This document shows, in pieces, positions 179-7,907 of a stretch of DNA of 8,841 bases. The position numbers were made by a program, and so were the translations under genes. The notes beneath the pieces are model-generated. The model was not told the origin of the DNA, searched no databases, and was given only the letters and a program-made list of their open reading frames with translations. Where the stretch lies: NCBI GenBank assembly GCA_946482355.1, contig CAMLRE010000062.1:1-8841 (forward strand), given 5' to 3'. Within the stretch, counting starts at the first letter, position 1. Every line of letters starts with the position of its first letter. Origin of the DNA: an uncultured Bdellovibrio sp. (GTDB taxonomy: Bacteria; Bdellovibrionota; Bdellovibrionia; Bdellovibrionales; Bdellovibrionaceae).

Positions 179-201
179 CCTCACTTTTTCTCAAAGTGGG
201 G
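179..201 (+). promoter_or_regulatory. Leader hairpin ahead of prkA
   Basis: CCTCACTTT (179-187) pairs with AAAGTGGGG (193-201) to give a 9-bp stem with one G-T wobble and a 5-nt loop (TTCTC). It ends 7 bases before the ribosome site of prkA (209-215). No T-run follows, so it is not a typical intrinsic terminator. It is more likely a 5' leader structure affecting mRNA stability or ribosome access. Confidence 0.5.
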
Positions 202-222
202 CACTTATGGAGGAGAATCACT

Positions 223-2301
223 ATGTCGTCTTCTATCAATCTTCGCTCTATCGTTGAAAAGCACCAACAGGGCAGCAACAAGAAAACAGCTATGCATTGG
301 ACAGGTACTTTTAATGAGTATCTAGAGCTAGTGAAGAAGAATCCTAAGTTAGCTAGAAATTCTTACCAGCGTATGTATGACATGATCATGGAAGCCGGTA
401 CGGAAGAGTATGTTGATTTTAAAAAGCATGTTATCCGTTATAAATTTTTCGATGATAAACAAAATAACGGTAAAGATGCGATCTTCGGTTTAGATGTTCA
501 ATTAATGAAATTCGTTAATATCTTAAAGGCAGCCTCTTTAGGATACGGAACTGAAAAACGTGTTATTTTACTTCACGGCCCGGTGGGTTCGGCAAAATCT
601 TCGATCTGCCGTATCTTAAAAAAAGGTTTAGAAGATTATTCTAGAACCGATCAAGGCGCACTATTTACTTTTGAATGGGTGATTGAAGATTCTAAAATCC
701 AACACTTATTAGGAAAAGACGTTAAAGTTTATCATACGCCGATGAATGAAGAACCGCTATGGTTAATTCCAGATGATATGCGCCAAGCGGTGGCTGATGA
801 AATCAACCGTTCGCAAGACGGTGATTACCGTGTGAAAATCACGGGCGAACTTTGCCCTCCATCGCGTTTTATCTTTAAAGGCTTAATGGATTACTACGAA
901 GGTGATTTAATGAAAGTATTAAATCACGTGCGTGTAAAACGTATGTTTATTTCTGAAGCTGACCGTGTAGGTATTGGTACTTTCCAGCCGAAAGATGAAA
1001 AAAATCAGGATTCAACAGAGTTAACCGGCGATATCAACTACCGTAAAATTGCTGAATACGGTTCTGATTCAGATCCACGGGCATTTAACTTCGATGGTGA
1101 GTTTAACGTAGCTAACCGCGGGATGATTGAATTTGTCGAGGTTTTAAAACTTGATGTGGCGTTCTTATACGATTTATTAGGAGCCTCACAAGAGCATAGA
1201 ATTAAACCTAAAAAATTCGCTCAGACTTATATTGATGAAGTGATCATTGGTCACACGAATGAGCCTGAGTACAGAAGATTACAAGATAACGAATTCATGG
1301 AGGCCTTACGCGATCGTACGGTGAAAGTGGATATTCCGTATATCACGCGCTTAAAACAAGAAGTGAATATCTATAAAAAAGATTTCAATTCACAAAAATT
1401 ACGCGGAATTTCAATTGCACCGCACACGATTGAAATGGCGGCAATGTGGGCGATTCTAACTCGTTTAGAAAAACCTAAAAAAGCAAATCTAACCCGTTTA
1501 CAAAAACTAAAATTATATAACGGTAAAACATTAGCGAATTACACTGAAGATAACGTTAAAGAGTTACGTAAAGAAACTTTACGTGAAGGTTTAGATGGTA
1601 TTTCTCCTCGTTATATTCAGGATAAATTATCAAATGCGCTTGTAATGGCTCAGCAGATGAATAAAGGTTCTGTGAACCCGTTCATGGTGATGAATGAATT
1701 AGAAAGTGGTTTAAAACATCATTCGTTAATTTCAGACGAAGAGCGCAAGCAAGAGTACCGCGAATTATTAAGTGTAGTTAAACAAGAGTACGAAGAAATT
1801 ATCAAAGGTGAAGTTCAACGTGCGATCAGTGCCGATGAAGGTGCATTACAGCGTTTATGCGCTAATTATATTGATAACGTTAAAGCTTATACGCAAAAAG
1901 AAAAAGTGCGTAACCAGTTCACGGGGCAGGATGACGATCCAGATGAGCGTTTAATGCGCGCGATTGAGGAAAAGATCGAAATTCCTGAATCACGCAAAGA
2001 CGACTTCCGCCGCGAGATCATGAATTACATCGGGGCATTGTCATTAGATGGTAAGAAATTTAACTACAAAATGAACGAACGTCTTCACAAAGCTTTAGAA
2101 TTAAAACTTTTCGAAGATCAAAAAGACAGTATTAAGCTTACGTCTTTAGTAAGTTCGGTAACAGATAAAGACACGCAGGAAAAAATCGAAATCGTTAAAT
2201 CACGTCTTATTAAAGACTTCGGATACGACGAAATTTCTGCAACCGATGTATTACATTACGTAGCCAGCATCTTCGCGCGCGGAGATGTGAAGAAACAATA
2301 A
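223..2301 (+). CDS. prkA: PrkA family AAA+ / serine protein kinase
   Basis: Cytoplasmic PrkA (YeaG) kinase, a 692-residue protein slightly longer than the roughly 630-645 residues usual for the family. The N-terminal two-thirds is the PrkA AAA+ domain. The Walker A motif GPVGSAKSS is at residues 119-127 with Lys125. The family block [19 protein letters not shown] (about 288-306) carries the Walker B-like acidic stretch, and [13 protein letters not shown] (341-353) is the sensor-like segment. The C-terminal part, roughly 430-690, is helical and charged and corresponds to the PrkA kinase-like domain. ATG 223 is chosen because GGAGGAG at 209-215 lies 7 bases before it; a GTG at 196 in the same frame lies inside the leader hairpin and has no ribosome site. 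It is the first gene of an operon with yeaH and spoVR. In enterobacteria and Bacillus, PrkA homologues phosphorylate proteins and act in stationary-phase and stress physiology; the substrate here is unknown. Confidence 0.95.
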
Positions 2302-2316
2302 TCGTTCGAAGTTTGA

Positions 2317-2336
2317 GAACGACCGCGAGGTCGTTC
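2317..2336 (+). promoter_or_regulatory. Perfect 8-bp hairpin with GCGA loop, prkA-yeaH gap
   Basis: GAACGACC and GGTCGTTC are exact reverse complements around a GCGA loop, which fits the stable GNRA tetraloop class. It starts 16 bases after the prkA stop. No U-tract follows (CTTTAGG), so it is more likely an mRNA-stability or partial-attenuation element than a full terminator. Confidence 0.55.
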
Positions 2337-2347
2337 CTTTAGGATAG

Positions 2348-2366
2348 GGTCTGCCGGAGGCAGATC
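2348..2366 (+). promoter_or_regulatory. Second hairpin in the prkA-yeaH gap
   Basis: GGTCTGCC (2348-2355) pairs with GGCAGATC (2359-2366) around a 3-nt GGA loop, with seven Watson-Crick pairs and one G-T pair. It ends 6 bases before the AAGGAG ribosome site of yeaH (2372-2377) and could influence translation of yeaH relative to prkA. Confidence 0.45.
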
Positions 2367-2383
2367 AACACAAGGAGCGTAGC

Positions 2384-3493
2384 GTGCCAATTCGTGAAGA
2401 CCAGAACCGGTTTAAAAATATTATTAAAGGCAAAGTTCGCGATGACTTTAAGAAATATGTCACGAATGGCGAGCTGATTGGTAAACGCGAAGAGGAATTC
2501 GTAAAAATTCCGCTTCCACGTATCGATATCCCTACGTTTCGTTACGGTCCTAAACAAGATCAACAAGGCGTAGGCCAGGGTGAAGGTGACGGCGATGGCC
2601 AACCTCAACAGGGCCAAGGCCAACAAGGCTCTGGCAAAGGCGAAGCTGGCGAAAATCCCGGCGAGCACATGCTTGAGGTTGAGATTTCTTTAGAAGAATT
2701 AGCCGAAATCTTAGGTGAAAAGTTGCAACTTCCGCGCATTTTACCAAAAGGCACTGCGAATTTAGTGACTGAAAAAACGCGTTACTCAGGTATTGCGCCA
2801 GTTGGACCAGAAGGCTTACGTAAATTTAAACAAACTTATAAAAAAGCTTTAGCCCGTTATATTTCTTCAGGAACATATAACCCGAATGATCCGGTGATTG
2901 TGCCGATTCGTTCAGATTACCAGTACCGCACGATCAAAAAAACGCAGAAGCCGCACACCAAAGCTGTGGTGATTTACATGATGGACGTGTCGGGTTCAAT
3001 GGGTGAAGAACAAAAAGAGATCGTTCGTTTAGAATCTTTTTGGATCAACACCTGGTTAAAGAAACATTACAAAGGCTTAGATACAAGATTCATCATTCAC
3101 GATGCTGCGGCTAAAGAAGTTGATGAAGACACTTTCTTTAAAACTTCTGAATCGGGCGGAACGCTCATCAGTTCGGCGTACAAAATGTGCCAACAGATTA
3201 TTGATGCTGAATACCCGGCGGATGAATGGAATATTTATCCGTTTCATTTTTCGGATGGTGATAACTGGTCAGGGGAAGACACAAGATTATGTATTCAACT
3301 GATCAAAGAATACTTTTTACCGCGCGTGAATGTGTTTTCATACGGTCAGGTTGAAAGTAAATACGGTTCAGGTCAGTTTTTAAAAGACCTGCAAAAAGAA
3401 TTCGGCGAAGACGAACAGGTGACTTTAAGCCAAATCGAATCGCGCGATAAAATTTTAGACTCAATCAAAGATTTCTTAGGAAAAGGTAAGTAG
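2384..3493 (+). CDS. yeaH: YeaH/DUF444 family protein, vWA-like, PrkA partner
   Basis: DUF444 (YeaH/YhbH) family protein of 369 residues, shorter than the 427-residue E. coli YeaH, mainly through a shorter N-terminal and middle part. The C-terminal half is a von Willebrand A-type fold with a visible metal site: DVSGS at 201-205 (the DxSxS motif), Thr260 in ESGGT, and Asp291/Asp293 in SDGDN. Residues about 57-96 form a low-complexity linker rich in Gly, Gln, Asp and Glu. Residues about 97-118 are an acidic segment ([18 protein letters not shown]) like the YeaH helix that follows the linker. Translation starts at GTG 2384, supported by AAGGAG at 2372-2377 six bases upstream; the short first residues ([12 protein letters not shown]) match the usual RRLKG-type beginning only loosely. 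It lies 82 bases after prkA and 19 before spoVR, so all three are probably one transcript. Its exact function is unsettled; a scaffold or adaptor for PrkA and SpoVR is the usual inference. Confidence 0.92.
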
Positions 3494-3512
3494 CACCTTT
3501 TGGAGGCCACCG

Positions 3513-5039
3513 ATGGCAAATTTAACTCTAGAACTTGAAACAGAAAGAAAAAAGATCTGCCAAGTCGCTAAAAACGTCGGCCTTGATTGTTTTGAAACTA
3601 TTTTCGAACTGATCAGCTACGATCAAATCAGCCAATTCGCAAGCTACGGCGGTTTTCCCGTACGTTATCCACACTGGAAATTCGGTATGGAGTACGAACA
3701 ACTTTCAAAATCTTACGAATATGGTTTATCTAAAATCTATGAAATGGTGATTAACACTGACCCTTGTTACGCGTACCTGATGGAAGGAAATTCCATGATG
3801 GACCAAAAACTTGTGATGGCGCACGTGTATGGTCACTGTGATTTTTTCAAGAACAATATCTGGTTTTCAAAAACCAACCGTAAAATGATGGATCAGATGG
3901 CAAACCATGCAACCCGCATTCGCCGCTACATCGATCGTTATGGTTATGAAGAAGTTGAACGCTTTATTGATACTTGTCTAAGTTTGGAAAATTTAATCGA
4001 CCGTTATTCAATTTTAAACGGGCCAACGCAATTTACCGAAAAAAAACCTCAGGTGCGTGAAGCTGATTTTGTGTTCCAGGTTGAAAAGTCTTATATGAAA
4101 AACTATATCAACCCGCCAGATGTGGTTGAAGAGTTTAAAAAAGACCAAATGCAAAAGCTTCAAGATAAAGCGCAGTTTCCGGCAGACCCGGTTCGCGATA
4201 TCTTAACATTTTTAATCCATTATGCCCCCTTAGAAGAGTGGCAACAGGATGTTTTATCGATTGTGAAAGATGAAGCTTACTATTTTGCTCCGCAAGGAAT
4301 GACTAAAACCATGAACGAAGGCTGGGCTTCTTACTGGCATTCGCACATTATGACTAAATATATTCTTAATGACTCAGAAATTATCGACTTTGCCGACCAC
4401 CATGCCGGAACCATGTTTATGAAAATGGGGGGGTATAACCCCTATAAAGTAGGCATCGAGTTGATGAGAGACATCGAAGAAAGATGGAATAAAGGAAAAT
4501 TTGGTCGCGAGTGGGATGAATGTGACGATGTTAAAGAACGGAAAAATTGGGATCGTAAGCTCAATTTAGGGCGCGAGAAGATCTTTGAGGTTCGTAAGCT
4601 TTATAATGACGTTACATTTATTGACGAGTTTTTAACAGAGGACTTCTGTGTTCGTAATAAAATGTTTGTTTACAAAATGAATAAGGAAACGGGCAAATTT
4701 GAAGTCGATACGCGTGACTTTAAAGCAATTAAGGCTCAGCTCCTGTTCCAGCTCGCTAATTTTGGCCAACCGATCATTAAAATCGAAAACGCAAATTTCG
4801 AAAACAGGGGGGAGTTGTTACTTCGCCATGTTCACGAAGGTTTAGATCTGCAGCCTAATTATATGGACGCCACAATGAAAAACTTAAACAAACTGTGGAA
4901 GCGTCCGGTAAATATAATTACAGTTATGGATAACGAGCCGCAGCTTTTCAGATTCGACGGCAAAGAATATACAAAGCACAGCTTATCGGAAAAATCGAAT
5001 TCTCAAGCTGAGCCGTCTCACAAAGAATCGGGAAGTTAA
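3513..5039 (+). CDS. spoVR: SpoVR/YcgB family protein
   Basis: SpoVR family protein of 508 residues, close to the 510 of E. coli YcgB, so full length. Family landmarks are present: AHVYGHCDFFKNN at 103-115 followed by WFSKTNRK; MNEGWASYWHSH at 267-278; ADHHAGTM at 294-301; and GGYNPYKVGIELMRDIEERW from 306. The His/Glu-rich blocks (His104, His108, Glu269, His276, His278, His296, His297) look like a possible metal-binding core, but no activity is established and I infer none. The C-terminal domain (about 370-490) includes GELLLRHVHEGLDLQPNYM, which corresponds to the YcgB C-terminal strand-rich part. ATG 3513 has GGAGG at 3502-3506, six bases upstream. It is the third gene of the prkA operon and is followed by a terminator-like hairpin. 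Family members were first linked to spore cortex in Bacillus, but the gene is widespread in non-sporulating Gram-negatives, where it accompanies prkA and yeaH. Confidence 0.93.
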   Translation: MANLTLELETERKKICQVAKNVGLDCFETIFELISYDQISQFASYGGFPVRYPHWKFGMEYEQLSKSYEYGLSKIYEMVINTDPCYAYLMEGNSMMDQKLVMAHVYGHCDFFKNNIWFSKTNRKMMDQMANHATRIRRYIDRYGYEEVERFIDTCLSLENLIDRYSILNGPTQFTEKKPQVREADFVFQVEKSYMKNYINPPDVVEEFKKDQMQKLQDKAQFPADPVRDILTFLIHYAPLEEWQQDVLSIVKDEAYYFAPQGMTKTMNEGWASYWHSHIMTKYILNDSEIIDFADHHAGTMFMKMGGYNPYKVGIELMRDIEERWNKGKFGREWDECDDVKERKNWDRKLNLGREKIFEVRKLYNDVTFIDEFLTEDFCVRNKMFVYKMNKETGKFEVDTRDFKAIKAQLLFQLANFGQPIIKIENANFENRGELLLRHVHEGLDLQPNYMDATMKNLNKLWKRPVNIITVMDNEPQLFRFDGKEYTKHSLSEKSNSQAEPSHKESGS

Positions 5040-6324: not shown

Positions 6325-7128
6325 ATGAAAACTACAAAACTACTTCTTATCGCGTTCTCTTTTTTAATTGTAAGCTGTAAAACTAACCCGGAATCTGCGG
6401 GCATCAGTGAAGATGATATTAACGTCGAAGCTGCCAAAGCTTACGCTGAAGTAAAAGCTAAATCTAAAATTTCAACAAACCAAGAATGGACCGCGATGGT
6501 TAACCGCGTGGCTAAACGTATCGCTTTAGCTTCAGGTAAACCCTATAACTGGGAAGTCGTTTTAATCGATAGCCCTGAAGTTAATGCGTGGTGTATGCCT
6601 GGCGGTAAAATGGCCGTTTACACAGGAATTATGCCTGTCGTAAAAACTGAAGCCGCTCTTGCGGCCGTTATGGGCCATGAAGTAGCGCATGCGACTTTAA
6701 AACATGGTTTAGCTCACTATGCGCGCGCAAAACAAAGCAATATGATTGGTGCAGTTGTCGGTGTGGGAACTGTTTTAGCTGGCGAACTTTTATGTAAAAC
6801 CGATTCTTGTAAAAAGTGGGCTCAACTTGGAGGAATTGCCGGCGGTTTTGCTGTGGCATTCTTTGATATGAAATTCTCTCGTGAAGATGAATCTGCCGCT
6901 GATAAAGAAGGTCAGATTTATATGGCCGACGCAGGCTATGAGCCCAGTGAATCTATCAAATTATGGGAGCGCATGGGGGCTGCTGGCGGCGGAAAACCAC
7001 CAGAAATTTTATCAACACATCCGTCTGATGAACGCCGCCGTGGAAACTTAACCGCTTGGTTACCTGCGGCTCAGGCTAGATACAACTCGGCTCCGCAGAA
7101 ATTCGGCTTAGGCGCAACGATCAAATAA
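6325..7128 (+). CDS. M48 family metalloprotease, outer-membrane lipoprotein
   Basis: Zinc metalloprotease of the M48 family, 267 residues, similar in size and layout to E. coli LoiP/YcaL. A lipoprotein signal (about residues 1-18) has a KTTK n-region, a hydrophobic core and the lipobox IVSC with Cys18. Lys19 at +2 does not match the inner-membrane Asp retention signal, so outer-membrane anchoring facing the periplasm is expected. The catalytic motif HEVAH is at 118-122, the third zinc ligand is Glu189 in EDESAAD (ExxxD pattern with Asp193), and STHPSDERR with His232 is the usual C-terminal family signature. Two hydrophobic stretches (about 141-157 and 167-180) lie between HExxH and the Glu ligand, as in other M48 proteins. 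No TPR domain follows, unlike BepA. The likely role is envelope protein quality control. ATG 6325 is the only start that keeps the full signal peptide, though no ribosome site precedes it. Confidence 0.92.
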   Translation: MKTTKLLLIAFSFLIVSCKTNPESAGISEDDINVEAAKAYAEVKAKSKISTNQEWTAMVNRVAKRIALASGKPYNWEVVLIDSPEVNAWCMPGGKMAVYTGIMPVVKTEAALAAVMGHEVAHATLKHGLAHYARAKQSNMIGAVVGVGTVLAGELLCKTDSCKKWAQLGGIAGGFAVAFFDMKFSREDESAADKEGQIYMADAGYEPSESIKLWERMGAAGGGKPPEILSTHPSDERRRGNLTAWLPAAQARYNSAPQKFGLGATIK

Positions 7129-7144
7129 GGCTTCGAACGGGGAA

Positions 7145-7248
7145 AATTTTTTTCTCCCTTCAAAAGCCTCAGACAATCCGTTTGTCACGCCTTTGCGTTC
7201 GCAAAGCCGCGCCAAGCCCGAACTCGTTTTTGAAGGAAGAAAAAAATT
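7145..7248 (+). repeat. Structured inverted-repeat element, copy 1 (sense +)
   Basis: A 104-nt element starting 16 bases after the M48 stop. Outer arms 7145-7165 and 7228-7248 pair at 20 of 21 positions (one C-A mismatch at 7156/7237), and a further G-T and C-G pair extend inward. Inside are a middle stem GTTTG/CAAGC (7180-7184 with 7213-7217) and an apical stem 7189-7196 with 7201-7208, interrupted by one mismatch and closing a GTTC loop. The core carries GCCTCA, GTCAC, TTCGCAA, GCGCC, CCGAACT and CGTTTT, all shared with copy 2. There is no open reading frame of note and no U-tract after the stem, so a classical intrinsic terminator is not the best description. A mobile palindromic repeat, 3' UTR element or small RNA are the alternatives. 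Confidence 0.75.
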
Positions 7249-7288
7249 CTAATCTTTCAAATTCTCTATTCTCTCTACAATCGAAGAT

Positions 7289-7400
7289 CTAAAAATATTT
7301 AATGCCTCTAAAACGTAGTTCGGAGGTGGGCGCAAGGTTGCGAATGCAAGCTTGTGACACCCCCGCTGTTTGAGGCTTTAGAGGTATTAAATATTTTTAG
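7289..7400 (-). repeat. Structured inverted-repeat element, copy 2 (sense -)
   Basis: A 112-nt element whose outer arms 7289-7312 and 7377-7400 pair at all 24 positions (one G-T at 7304/7385). Read on the minus strand, its core aligns with copy 1 almost without gaps: about 49 of 72 positions agree by hand alignment, with one single-base gap in a C-run and one near CCGAACT. The middle stem is CGGGGGTG/CACCTCCG (minus-strand reading of 7358-7365 and 7321-7328). The apical stem is 7346-7353 with 7334-7341 around a 4-nt loop read as ATTC. The arm sequences are unrelated to those of copy 1. It lies 30 bases beyond the tadA stop on tadA's sense strand. Confidence 0.75.
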
Positions 7401-7416
7401 CCTCGCGTGCAGACTG

Positions 7417-7441
7417 AACTTATTTGAAAGTTATTTTTTTT
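7417..7441 (+). terminator. Weak terminator-like hairpin with T8 tract
   Basis: AACTT (7417-7421) pairs with AAGTT (7428-7432) around a 6-nt loop and is followed by A and eight T's (7434-7441). It would stop plus-strand transcription arriving from the protease gene just as it enters tadA in antisense. The stem is short, and the T-tract is also the Lys-rich 3' end of tadA, so this may be coincidence. Confidence 0.3.
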
Positions 7442-7907
7442 CTGAGCGTTTTTGTTTGAAGAAGGTCTTCAGTAAATCACTGCATTCGTGTTGCATGAGT
7501 CCGTTTTCGGCTGTGAATCTGTGATTTAGTTTTGGGTGTTTTGATAAATCTTCGAGTGAGCCCATGGCTCCGGCTTTTGGGTCGTGGGTGGCGAAGACAA
7601 CGCGTTTGATTCTTGATTGCACTAAGGCTCCCGCGCACATGTAGCACGGTTCAAGAGTTACATAGAGGGTGCAATCGACTAAGCGCCATGAGTTTTTGGT
7701 TTTGCAGGCTCTGTGAAGGGCTACTAGTTCGGCGTGGCCTAAAACAGTATTTAGTTGTTCGCGCTTGTTTCCGGATTTTCCGATGACCTTGCCTTCAGCA
7801 TCGACCACTACGGCGCCGATCGGTACTTCGCCTTTTAATTGGGCGTTTTTGGCCAATTTAAAGGCTAATTGCATGAATTTATGGTCTTGTTCGGTGAATT
7901 GATCCAT
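7431..7907 (-). CDS. tadA: tRNA(adenine34) deaminase TadA
   Basis: Zinc-dependent deaminase that converts A34 to inosine in the anticodon of tRNA-Arg(ACG), allowing decoding of CGN codons; essential in most bacteria. The protein has 158 residues, normal for TadA. GEVPIGAVVVDAEG at 26-39 is the family N-terminal block. The zinc site consists of His58 in HAE (with Glu60 as the proton shuttle) and Cys88 and Cys91 in PCYMC, followed by AGALVQSRIKRVVFA and DPKAGAMGS, all typical of TadA rather than cytidine or guanine deaminases. The C-terminus is basic (KQKRSEKK). It is transcribed toward the M48 gene and away from rpsU. The ATG at 7907 gives the expected N-terminus; upstream there is only a poor ribosome site (GAG). 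Confidence 0.94.
   Translation of the reverse strand: MDQFTEQDHKFMQLAFKLAKNAQLKGEVPIGAVVVDAEGKVIGKSGNKREQLNTVLGHAELVALHRACKTKNSWRLVDCTLYVTLEPCYMCAGALVQSRIKRVVFATHDPKAGAMGSLEDLSKHPKLNHRFTAENGLMQHECSDLLKTFFKQKRSEKK

Follow-up and report, generated by a model that had tools for sequence, protein, structure and literature searches.

Two inverted palindromic elements behind convergent genes of an uncultured Bdellovibrio sp. belong to a dispersed family with a shared core

Two copies between convergent genes

The window (the whole 8,841-nt stretch analyzed, from contig CAMLRE010000062.1 of an uncultured Bdellovibrio sp.) contains an M48 peptidase gene and a tadA-like deaminase gene that converge on a gap holding two palindromic copies in opposite orientation. 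Both gene identities had been proposed in a preliminary description made from the sequence alone, and Pfam agreed (Peptidase_M48 and a deaminase fold). The spacing was also as described, with 16 nt between the end of the M48 stop at 7128 and the copy 1 arm at 7145 and 30 nt between the end of the copy 2 arm at 7400 and the tadA stop codon at 7431. Each copy consists of a core enclosed by its own inverted repeat, and arm limits were set by ungapped pairing outward from the core. X refers to the side bearing CTC..ACA and Y to the side bearing GAACTCG.

6325 to 7128, plus strand: M48 peptidase gene, upstream of copy 1 (Pfam PF01435, E = 7.6e-33)
7145 to 7165, plus strand: copy 1 outer arm, X side; pairs with 7228 to 7248 over 21 bp with one C.A mismatch
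7166 to 7227, plus strand: copy 1 core, from a four-way alignment with copy 2 and two of a relative's copies that served to build model R1
7167 to 7175, plus strand: copy 1 X junction, CCTCAGACA, within the core and followed by inner hairpins
7220 to 7226, plus strand: copy 1 Y junction, GAACTCG, within the core after the inner hairpins
7228 to 7248, plus strand: copy 1 outer arm, Y side; pairs with 7145 to 7165
7289 to 7312, minus strand: copy 2 outer arm, Y side; pairs with 7377 to 7400
7313 to 7376, minus strand: copy 2 core with inner hairpins, from the alignment with copy 1 and the relative's copies
7314 to 7321 of the plus strand, element on the minus strand: copy 2 Y junction, GAACTACG, within the core
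7368 to 7376 of the plus strand, element on the minus strand: copy 2 X junction, CCTCAAACA, within the core
7377 to 7400, minus strand: copy 2 outer arm, X side; pairs with 7289 to 7312 over 24 bp with one A.C mismatch
7431 to 7907, minus strand: tadA-like deaminase gene, upstream of copy 2 (Pfam PF14437 and PF00383, deaminase fold)

Global alignment of the plus strand of 7162 to 7231 with the minus strand of 7309 to 7380 gave 50 identical columns out of 72 and a score of 26, confirming a likeness previously counted by hand at about 49 of 72; 500 dinucleotide-shuffled pairs of the two stretches had a mean score of −11.7 and a maximum of 8, and none reached 26. Predicted folding was stronger than in all 200 shuffles of the same sequence for both copy 1 (z = −3.2) and copy 2 (z = −9.1). 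The outer stems, which end short of both genes, have no sequence relation to each other, yet each pairs with itself near-perfectly. An unusual terminator had been suggested as one possible role; a simple scan of 7050 to 7480 for a GC-rich stem followed by a T run lent this no support (0 found, compared to 0.7 in shuffles), and a promoter scan also returned nothing.

The closest relatives found by M48 protein (90% identity) were Bdellovibrio sp. qaytius (L001) and a Pseudobdellovibrio sp. metagenome-assembled genome (L002). Their M48 and tadA stops lie about 8 and about 3 nt apart, as judged by eye, and neither window copy is present. The genome of L002 (G002) carries copies at other places, again with other stems. 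Elsewhere in the window, positions 196 to 5039 hold a row of three genes annotated by Pfam as encoding AAA-type kinase-like, von Willebrand-type, and SpoVR proteins, the first PrkA-like and the second YeaH-like by eye.

A family spread through one order

Covariance models matched further copies in the genomes of relatives, bearing out the proposal that the two stretches belong to a repeat family. Model R1 matched 8 of the 14 genomes of G002's genus at E ≤ 0.1. The constant part was the junction, with variable stems both outside and inside it, and so a second model (R2) was built from seven short copies. At E ≤ 0.5, R2 matched 10 of the 14 genomes in the genus, including some matches that lacked arms and were hence false; weak model matches at L166, L167, L174, L175, and L184 had no arms and were judged false by folding. 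Under the stricter filters applied in searches of more than 40 genomes, R2 matched 13 of 66 family genomes and, among the matches listed, 35 of 140 order genomes (both E ≤ 0.01). At E ≤ 0.001, it matched 29 of 368 phylum genomes, all 29 inside the order's 140. More than 150 R2 matches were listed order-wide, and the element counts given here rest on the subset that was fetched. Matches in single genomes numbered at least 29 (G125) and at least 19 (G098).

A scan of the fetched DNA for the junction plus paired arms returned 120 distinct elements at 109 loci, with arms of 12 to 133 bp (median, 29 bp); the same scan was empty over 400 kb of the G005 genome and over M48 loci totaling 850 kb. The core runs from an AAA-rich start through CTCRRACA, a variable inner hairpin, and GAACTCG to a TTT-rich end, and the consensus over 82 nonredundant elements was AAA[GA][GC]CTC[AG][GA]ACA and GAACTCG[TCG]TTT around the inner hairpin. 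The scan pattern fixes CT-[CT]-N-[AG]-ACA and AACT, such that the invariance of those letters is partly built in; near-constant junction positions among the 82 elements occur outside these letters too. Elements are sometimes nested, in the same or opposite orientation (L208, L213, and L081).

The window copies are members of this family of small dispersed palindromic elements in the order holding Pseudobdellovibrio. The family is real, widespread within that one order, and absent from Rfam. For the whole window, Rfam gave no match at gathering score and, at E ≤ 10, only sub-gathering matches, none of them credible; for six loci with copies it returned tRNA and c-di-GMP-I only and no family for the element. 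The earlier statement that no named family matches therefore holds in Rfam. A literature search, conducted largely outside subscription papers, found no description of the family. Plasmids gave no family match at E ≤ 0.01, and viral contigs, scanned with one pattern, yielded two matches only, both in phage coding sequence without arms.

Several features were observed alongside the family. Five loci of G012 (L131, L133, and L135 to L137) carry a related variant, CTCAGACGAA .. CCTGAGACGCGTCACGCTTTTCGG, that is branched and has long paired arms, and GAATTC is present in several stems of that genome. Near position 2650150 of G005 (L169), a palindrome, TGTTCCACGTGGAACA, which we take to be parS-like, precedes a pair of elements by about 100 bp. 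All ten G005 matches at E ≤ 0.01 fall in the approximately 36% of the genome nearest coordinate 0, although the model may miss others.

Gene ends, stems, and presence in relatives

Elements in G002's genus, including the window, were found predominantly in convergent gaps (27 of 36 classifiable places, with 9 tandem and none divergent). Among 232 comparison gaps, 30 were convergent, 123 tandem, and 79 divergent (Fisher P = 5e-14 for the convergent excess of elements). In other genera, the 41 classifiable places comprised 10 convergent, 24 tandem, and 7 divergent gaps. These counts derive from 90 rows, less 7 duplicate loci and with 6 of the remaining 83 unclassed at contig ends, and used a crude ORF caller (≥80 amino acids). 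The preliminary description had placed the repeat at gene 3′ ends, which describes the genus well and is not supported as a rule in other genera, where 7 of 41 places are divergent gaps. Its other generalization, that each element lies in the sense orientation of its own gene, was not upheld, since elements in tandem gaps ran with the genes in 19 cases and against them in 14 (P = 0.49); sense-orientation copies do recur, for example behind rpoD-like genes in two genomes. All 8 nonnested close pairs face inward, like the window pair, which supports inward facing as the rule for close pairs.

Read from the sequences, the outer stem is mostly locus specific and not a fixed family sequence. Among ten copies in G098, six have an identical 45-nt core and four differ from it by one change each, and their stems differ. 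Six of these copies pass the arm scan, with arms of 48 to 70 bp; the other four (L249, L250, L254, and L256) fail the ungapped scan through three clustered mismatches and have arms that pair by eye. The G098 stems are not wholly independent, as core-adjacent blocks are common to subsets of copies. In G077, the cores of four copies, lying between A6 and T6, are nearly identical, whereas the stems differ, and two of these stems extend into genes. Stems are common to copies in G091, and part of a stem is common to two copies in G058. The G091 copies (L265 to L268) form a MITE-like subfamily in which stems are shared and the core occurs in either orientation; farther out lies another asymmetric internal loop, the second, and two copies have a further inverted flank, CCTACAACAGTG / CACTGTTGTAGG.

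At single loci, the arms mirror the ends of genes. In L228, which has a 47-bp arm, a tatC-like gene ends inside the arm, and the far arm exactly mirrors the gene's last 30 nt and 3′ region. TatC proteins of four relatives end at positions similar to that of the L228 protein; the closest comparison genomes are only 65 to 73% identical and therefore offer no clean empty site from which the older arm could be read. In L275, the final 8 nt of a tRNA-Arg(CCT) gene, called by both ARAGORN and Rfam, are mirrored exactly by the 43-bp arm. A 133-bp stem in L277 contains 16 nt of a gene and lies at a contig end, so that an assembly fold-back is possible there. Among the 120 elements, the arm includes the 3′ end of a gene on the X side at 7 loci (3 to 30 nt; two are tRNAs) and on the Y side at 5 (3 to 18 nt), with two loci counted on both sides and several overlaps of 3 to 4 nt constituting weak evidence. 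The occurrence of overlaps on both sides indicates that the template side is not fixed.

Relatives differ in the presence of elements at matching sites, as would be seen for a mobile element, both at the window site and for two elements of a G125 contig. The latter are absent from the aligned gaps of two genomes of the same genus, G126 (89 bp, versus 223 bp in G125) and G124 (37 versus 225 bp), gaps too diverged to tell the older arm. Three gene positions are occupied in two species of the genus each, with different stems (behind rpoD in G005 and G011, L209 and L217, and L206 and L212). Repeated insertion at these gene ends or later remaking of the stem would produce this; if each position reflects one old insertion, the second applies and the stems were not fixed at insertion.

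Possible origins of the stems

A constant core surrounded by stems that vary by locus and mirror genes is explained most simply by fold-back copying. In this process, the core's T-rich end would pair with its A-rich start, and the 3′ DNA end folded back in this way would prime synthesis; the flank next to it would be copied in inverted form before synthesis returned to its normal template. The stem would be formed from the flank at the core's site and not carried as fixed sequence, and effects on transcripts, such as a 3′-untranslated region (3′-UTR) hairpin or a block to convergent read-through, would be secondary. Copying may have taken place at insertion or repeatedly later, and the core may move alone or with a helper. 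We consider the chances about even that these are small dispersed palindromic elements whose stems were copied by fold-back from the DNA beside them, either during insertion or afterward. The conserved junction within paired arms of widely varying length, the mirrored gene ends, the pairing of one core with different stems in G098 and G077, the differences in presence between relatives, and the lack of flush direct repeats argue for this reading. Shared positions with different stems, stems common to some copies, and the lack of a fixed template side argue against it, as do the window stems that stop short of the genes, the lack of a clean empty site for L228, and an asymmetry between strands (below) that the mechanism does not predict. 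No moving enzyme was found in the 20 Y1-transposase loci fetched or as an ORF-bearing long version between junctions in the 2.23 Mb searched; three long-version candidates, with inserts of 121 to 264 nt, proved to be neighboring or nested copies.

The elements could alternatively be structured RNAs (3′-UTR hairpins, processing sites, or unusual terminators) that are inherited vertically, with stems kept by compensatory selection. Arm mismatches on the X-first strand were 60 A.C/C.A and 12 G.T/T.G (43 and 10 when counted by element), and for 61 of 82 elements the opposite strand gave the better core fold. An excess of A.C on the X-first strand equates to tolerance of G.U on the other, so if one strand is selected to fold, it is probably not the sense strand of the preliminary description. 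K-turn and ribozyme readings of the junction were considered by hand, and on that opposite strand its bases could be arranged as a C-G pair, tandem G.A/A.G pairs, and a G-Y pair. This asymmetry is evidence for an RNA element or for single-stranded DNA of one strand. The bias to convergent gene ends within the genus and the three shared positions, at which stems differ yet remain paired, also favor an RNA, as does the position of one element (in L085) after a c-di-GMP-I aptamer. Selection on an RNA stem, however, is not a ready source of the coding and tRNA sequence inside stems, nor does it fit the different stems on near-identical cores in one genome, the inconsistent orientation to genes, or a window with no terminator-like match; we consider an RNA element unlikely. 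The aptamer of L085 (1228 to 1302; G002:C60) is a lone c-di-GMP-I riboswitch aptamer that shares the strand of the element and lies about 200 nt upstream of it. Abundant, free-standing c-di-GMP-I RNAs occur in Bdellovibrio.

A MITE of the classical type or a REP-like repeat, having terminal inverted repeats of its own and moved by a host transposase such as RAYT, would explain the dispersal of many near-identical cores per genome, and both the G091 copies and the Y1 transposase domains found in 96 of the 140 genomes are in line with it. REP and BIME sequences are short intergenic palindromes in many copies, often between convergent genes and in inverted pairs, with stems that are family sequence. 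The present elements resemble those of REP/BIME systems with RAYT (TnpA-REP) in being short, palindromic, many-copy, often convergent, and paired in inverted orientation. In contrast, their stems are locus specific and mostly differ between copies, and no RAYT adjoins them, as no elements were found in the 20 Y1-transposase loci fetched. The element-rich genomes G125, G104, G106, G124, G126, and G012 also lie outside the 96 with Y1 matches. One Y1 transposase gene (L285; G097:C35) is flanked by complex short palindromes, as would be expected for a RAYT with its own REPs. MITEs are described, in the portion of one account consulted, as having terminal inverted repeats of approximately 4 to 30 bp and flanking direct repeats when young (PMC10969869). 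The elements are like prokaryotic MITEs (RUP, Correia/NEMIS, ERIC, and others) in being <500 bp, noncoding, intergenic, and bounded by inverted repeats. Terminal inverted repeats are common to the G091 copies and different in G098 and G077. The elements differ from MITEs in that the outer arms mostly vary by copy and in that no target-site duplication was found: none of 111 testable elements (of 120) had a flush direct repeat of ≥4 bp (shuffled mean, 0.45). A MITE or REP origin is thus improbable.

Insertion of the core at the tip of a pre-existing palindrome or terminator hairpin is very unlikely: nested copies (L208, L213, and L081/L206) and the resemblance of some inner hairpins to A/T-flanked terminators would fit, but palindromes of this size are too scarce to be a likely ready-made target (400 kb of G005 held 11 whose arms reached ≥16 bp, and the core was in none of them), one that already included the end of a tatC or tRNA gene would be improbable, and relatives have almost no intergenic DNA at the window site.

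Other systems share parts of this arrangement. Integron attC sites are imperfect hairpins just behind a gene that share little sequence beyond short boxes, and the elements are likewise hairpins behind genes with little shared sequence beyond short boxes; unlike attC sites, they have no R-box by eye, adjoin core genes rather than cassettes, and occur in both orientations. Mitochondrial mobile hairpins (double-hairpin elements and RHE) are, in the excerpted accounts, dispersed and without an obvious enzyme (PMC2800124 and PMC4478555), as are the present elements in different genomes. Quasipalindrome template-switch mutation, in the excerpted text of one paper, involves hairpin-directed inverted copying of nearby DNA (PMC7202029). 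It starts from an imperfect palindrome and has a small result, unlike an element with a conserved core and stems of up to 70 bp or more at many loci.

By appearance, the family is a new variety among dispersed palindromic repeats. Fold-back copying can be extended to a fuller proposal, to which we give somewhat less than an even chance: a bacterial mobile element that inserts by fold-back replication, its core capturing a DNA 3′ end so that the flank, often a gene 3′ end, is mirrored as an inverted rather than a direct target duplication, seeding long perfect cruciforms between convergent genes across a predatory order. Small palindromic repeats are common in bacteria, and their stems are normally family sequence. 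Work on fold-back DNA synthesis has otherwise dealt with chromosome breaks and template-switch mutation. Should the mirror-copy mechanism be right, elements would have a further, new mode of establishing themselves in DNA. A family with host-mirroring stems would let fold-back DNA synthesis be studied as an experiment that nature has repeated, and it could be a source of new long hairpins, bidirectional 3′ ends, and cruciforms.
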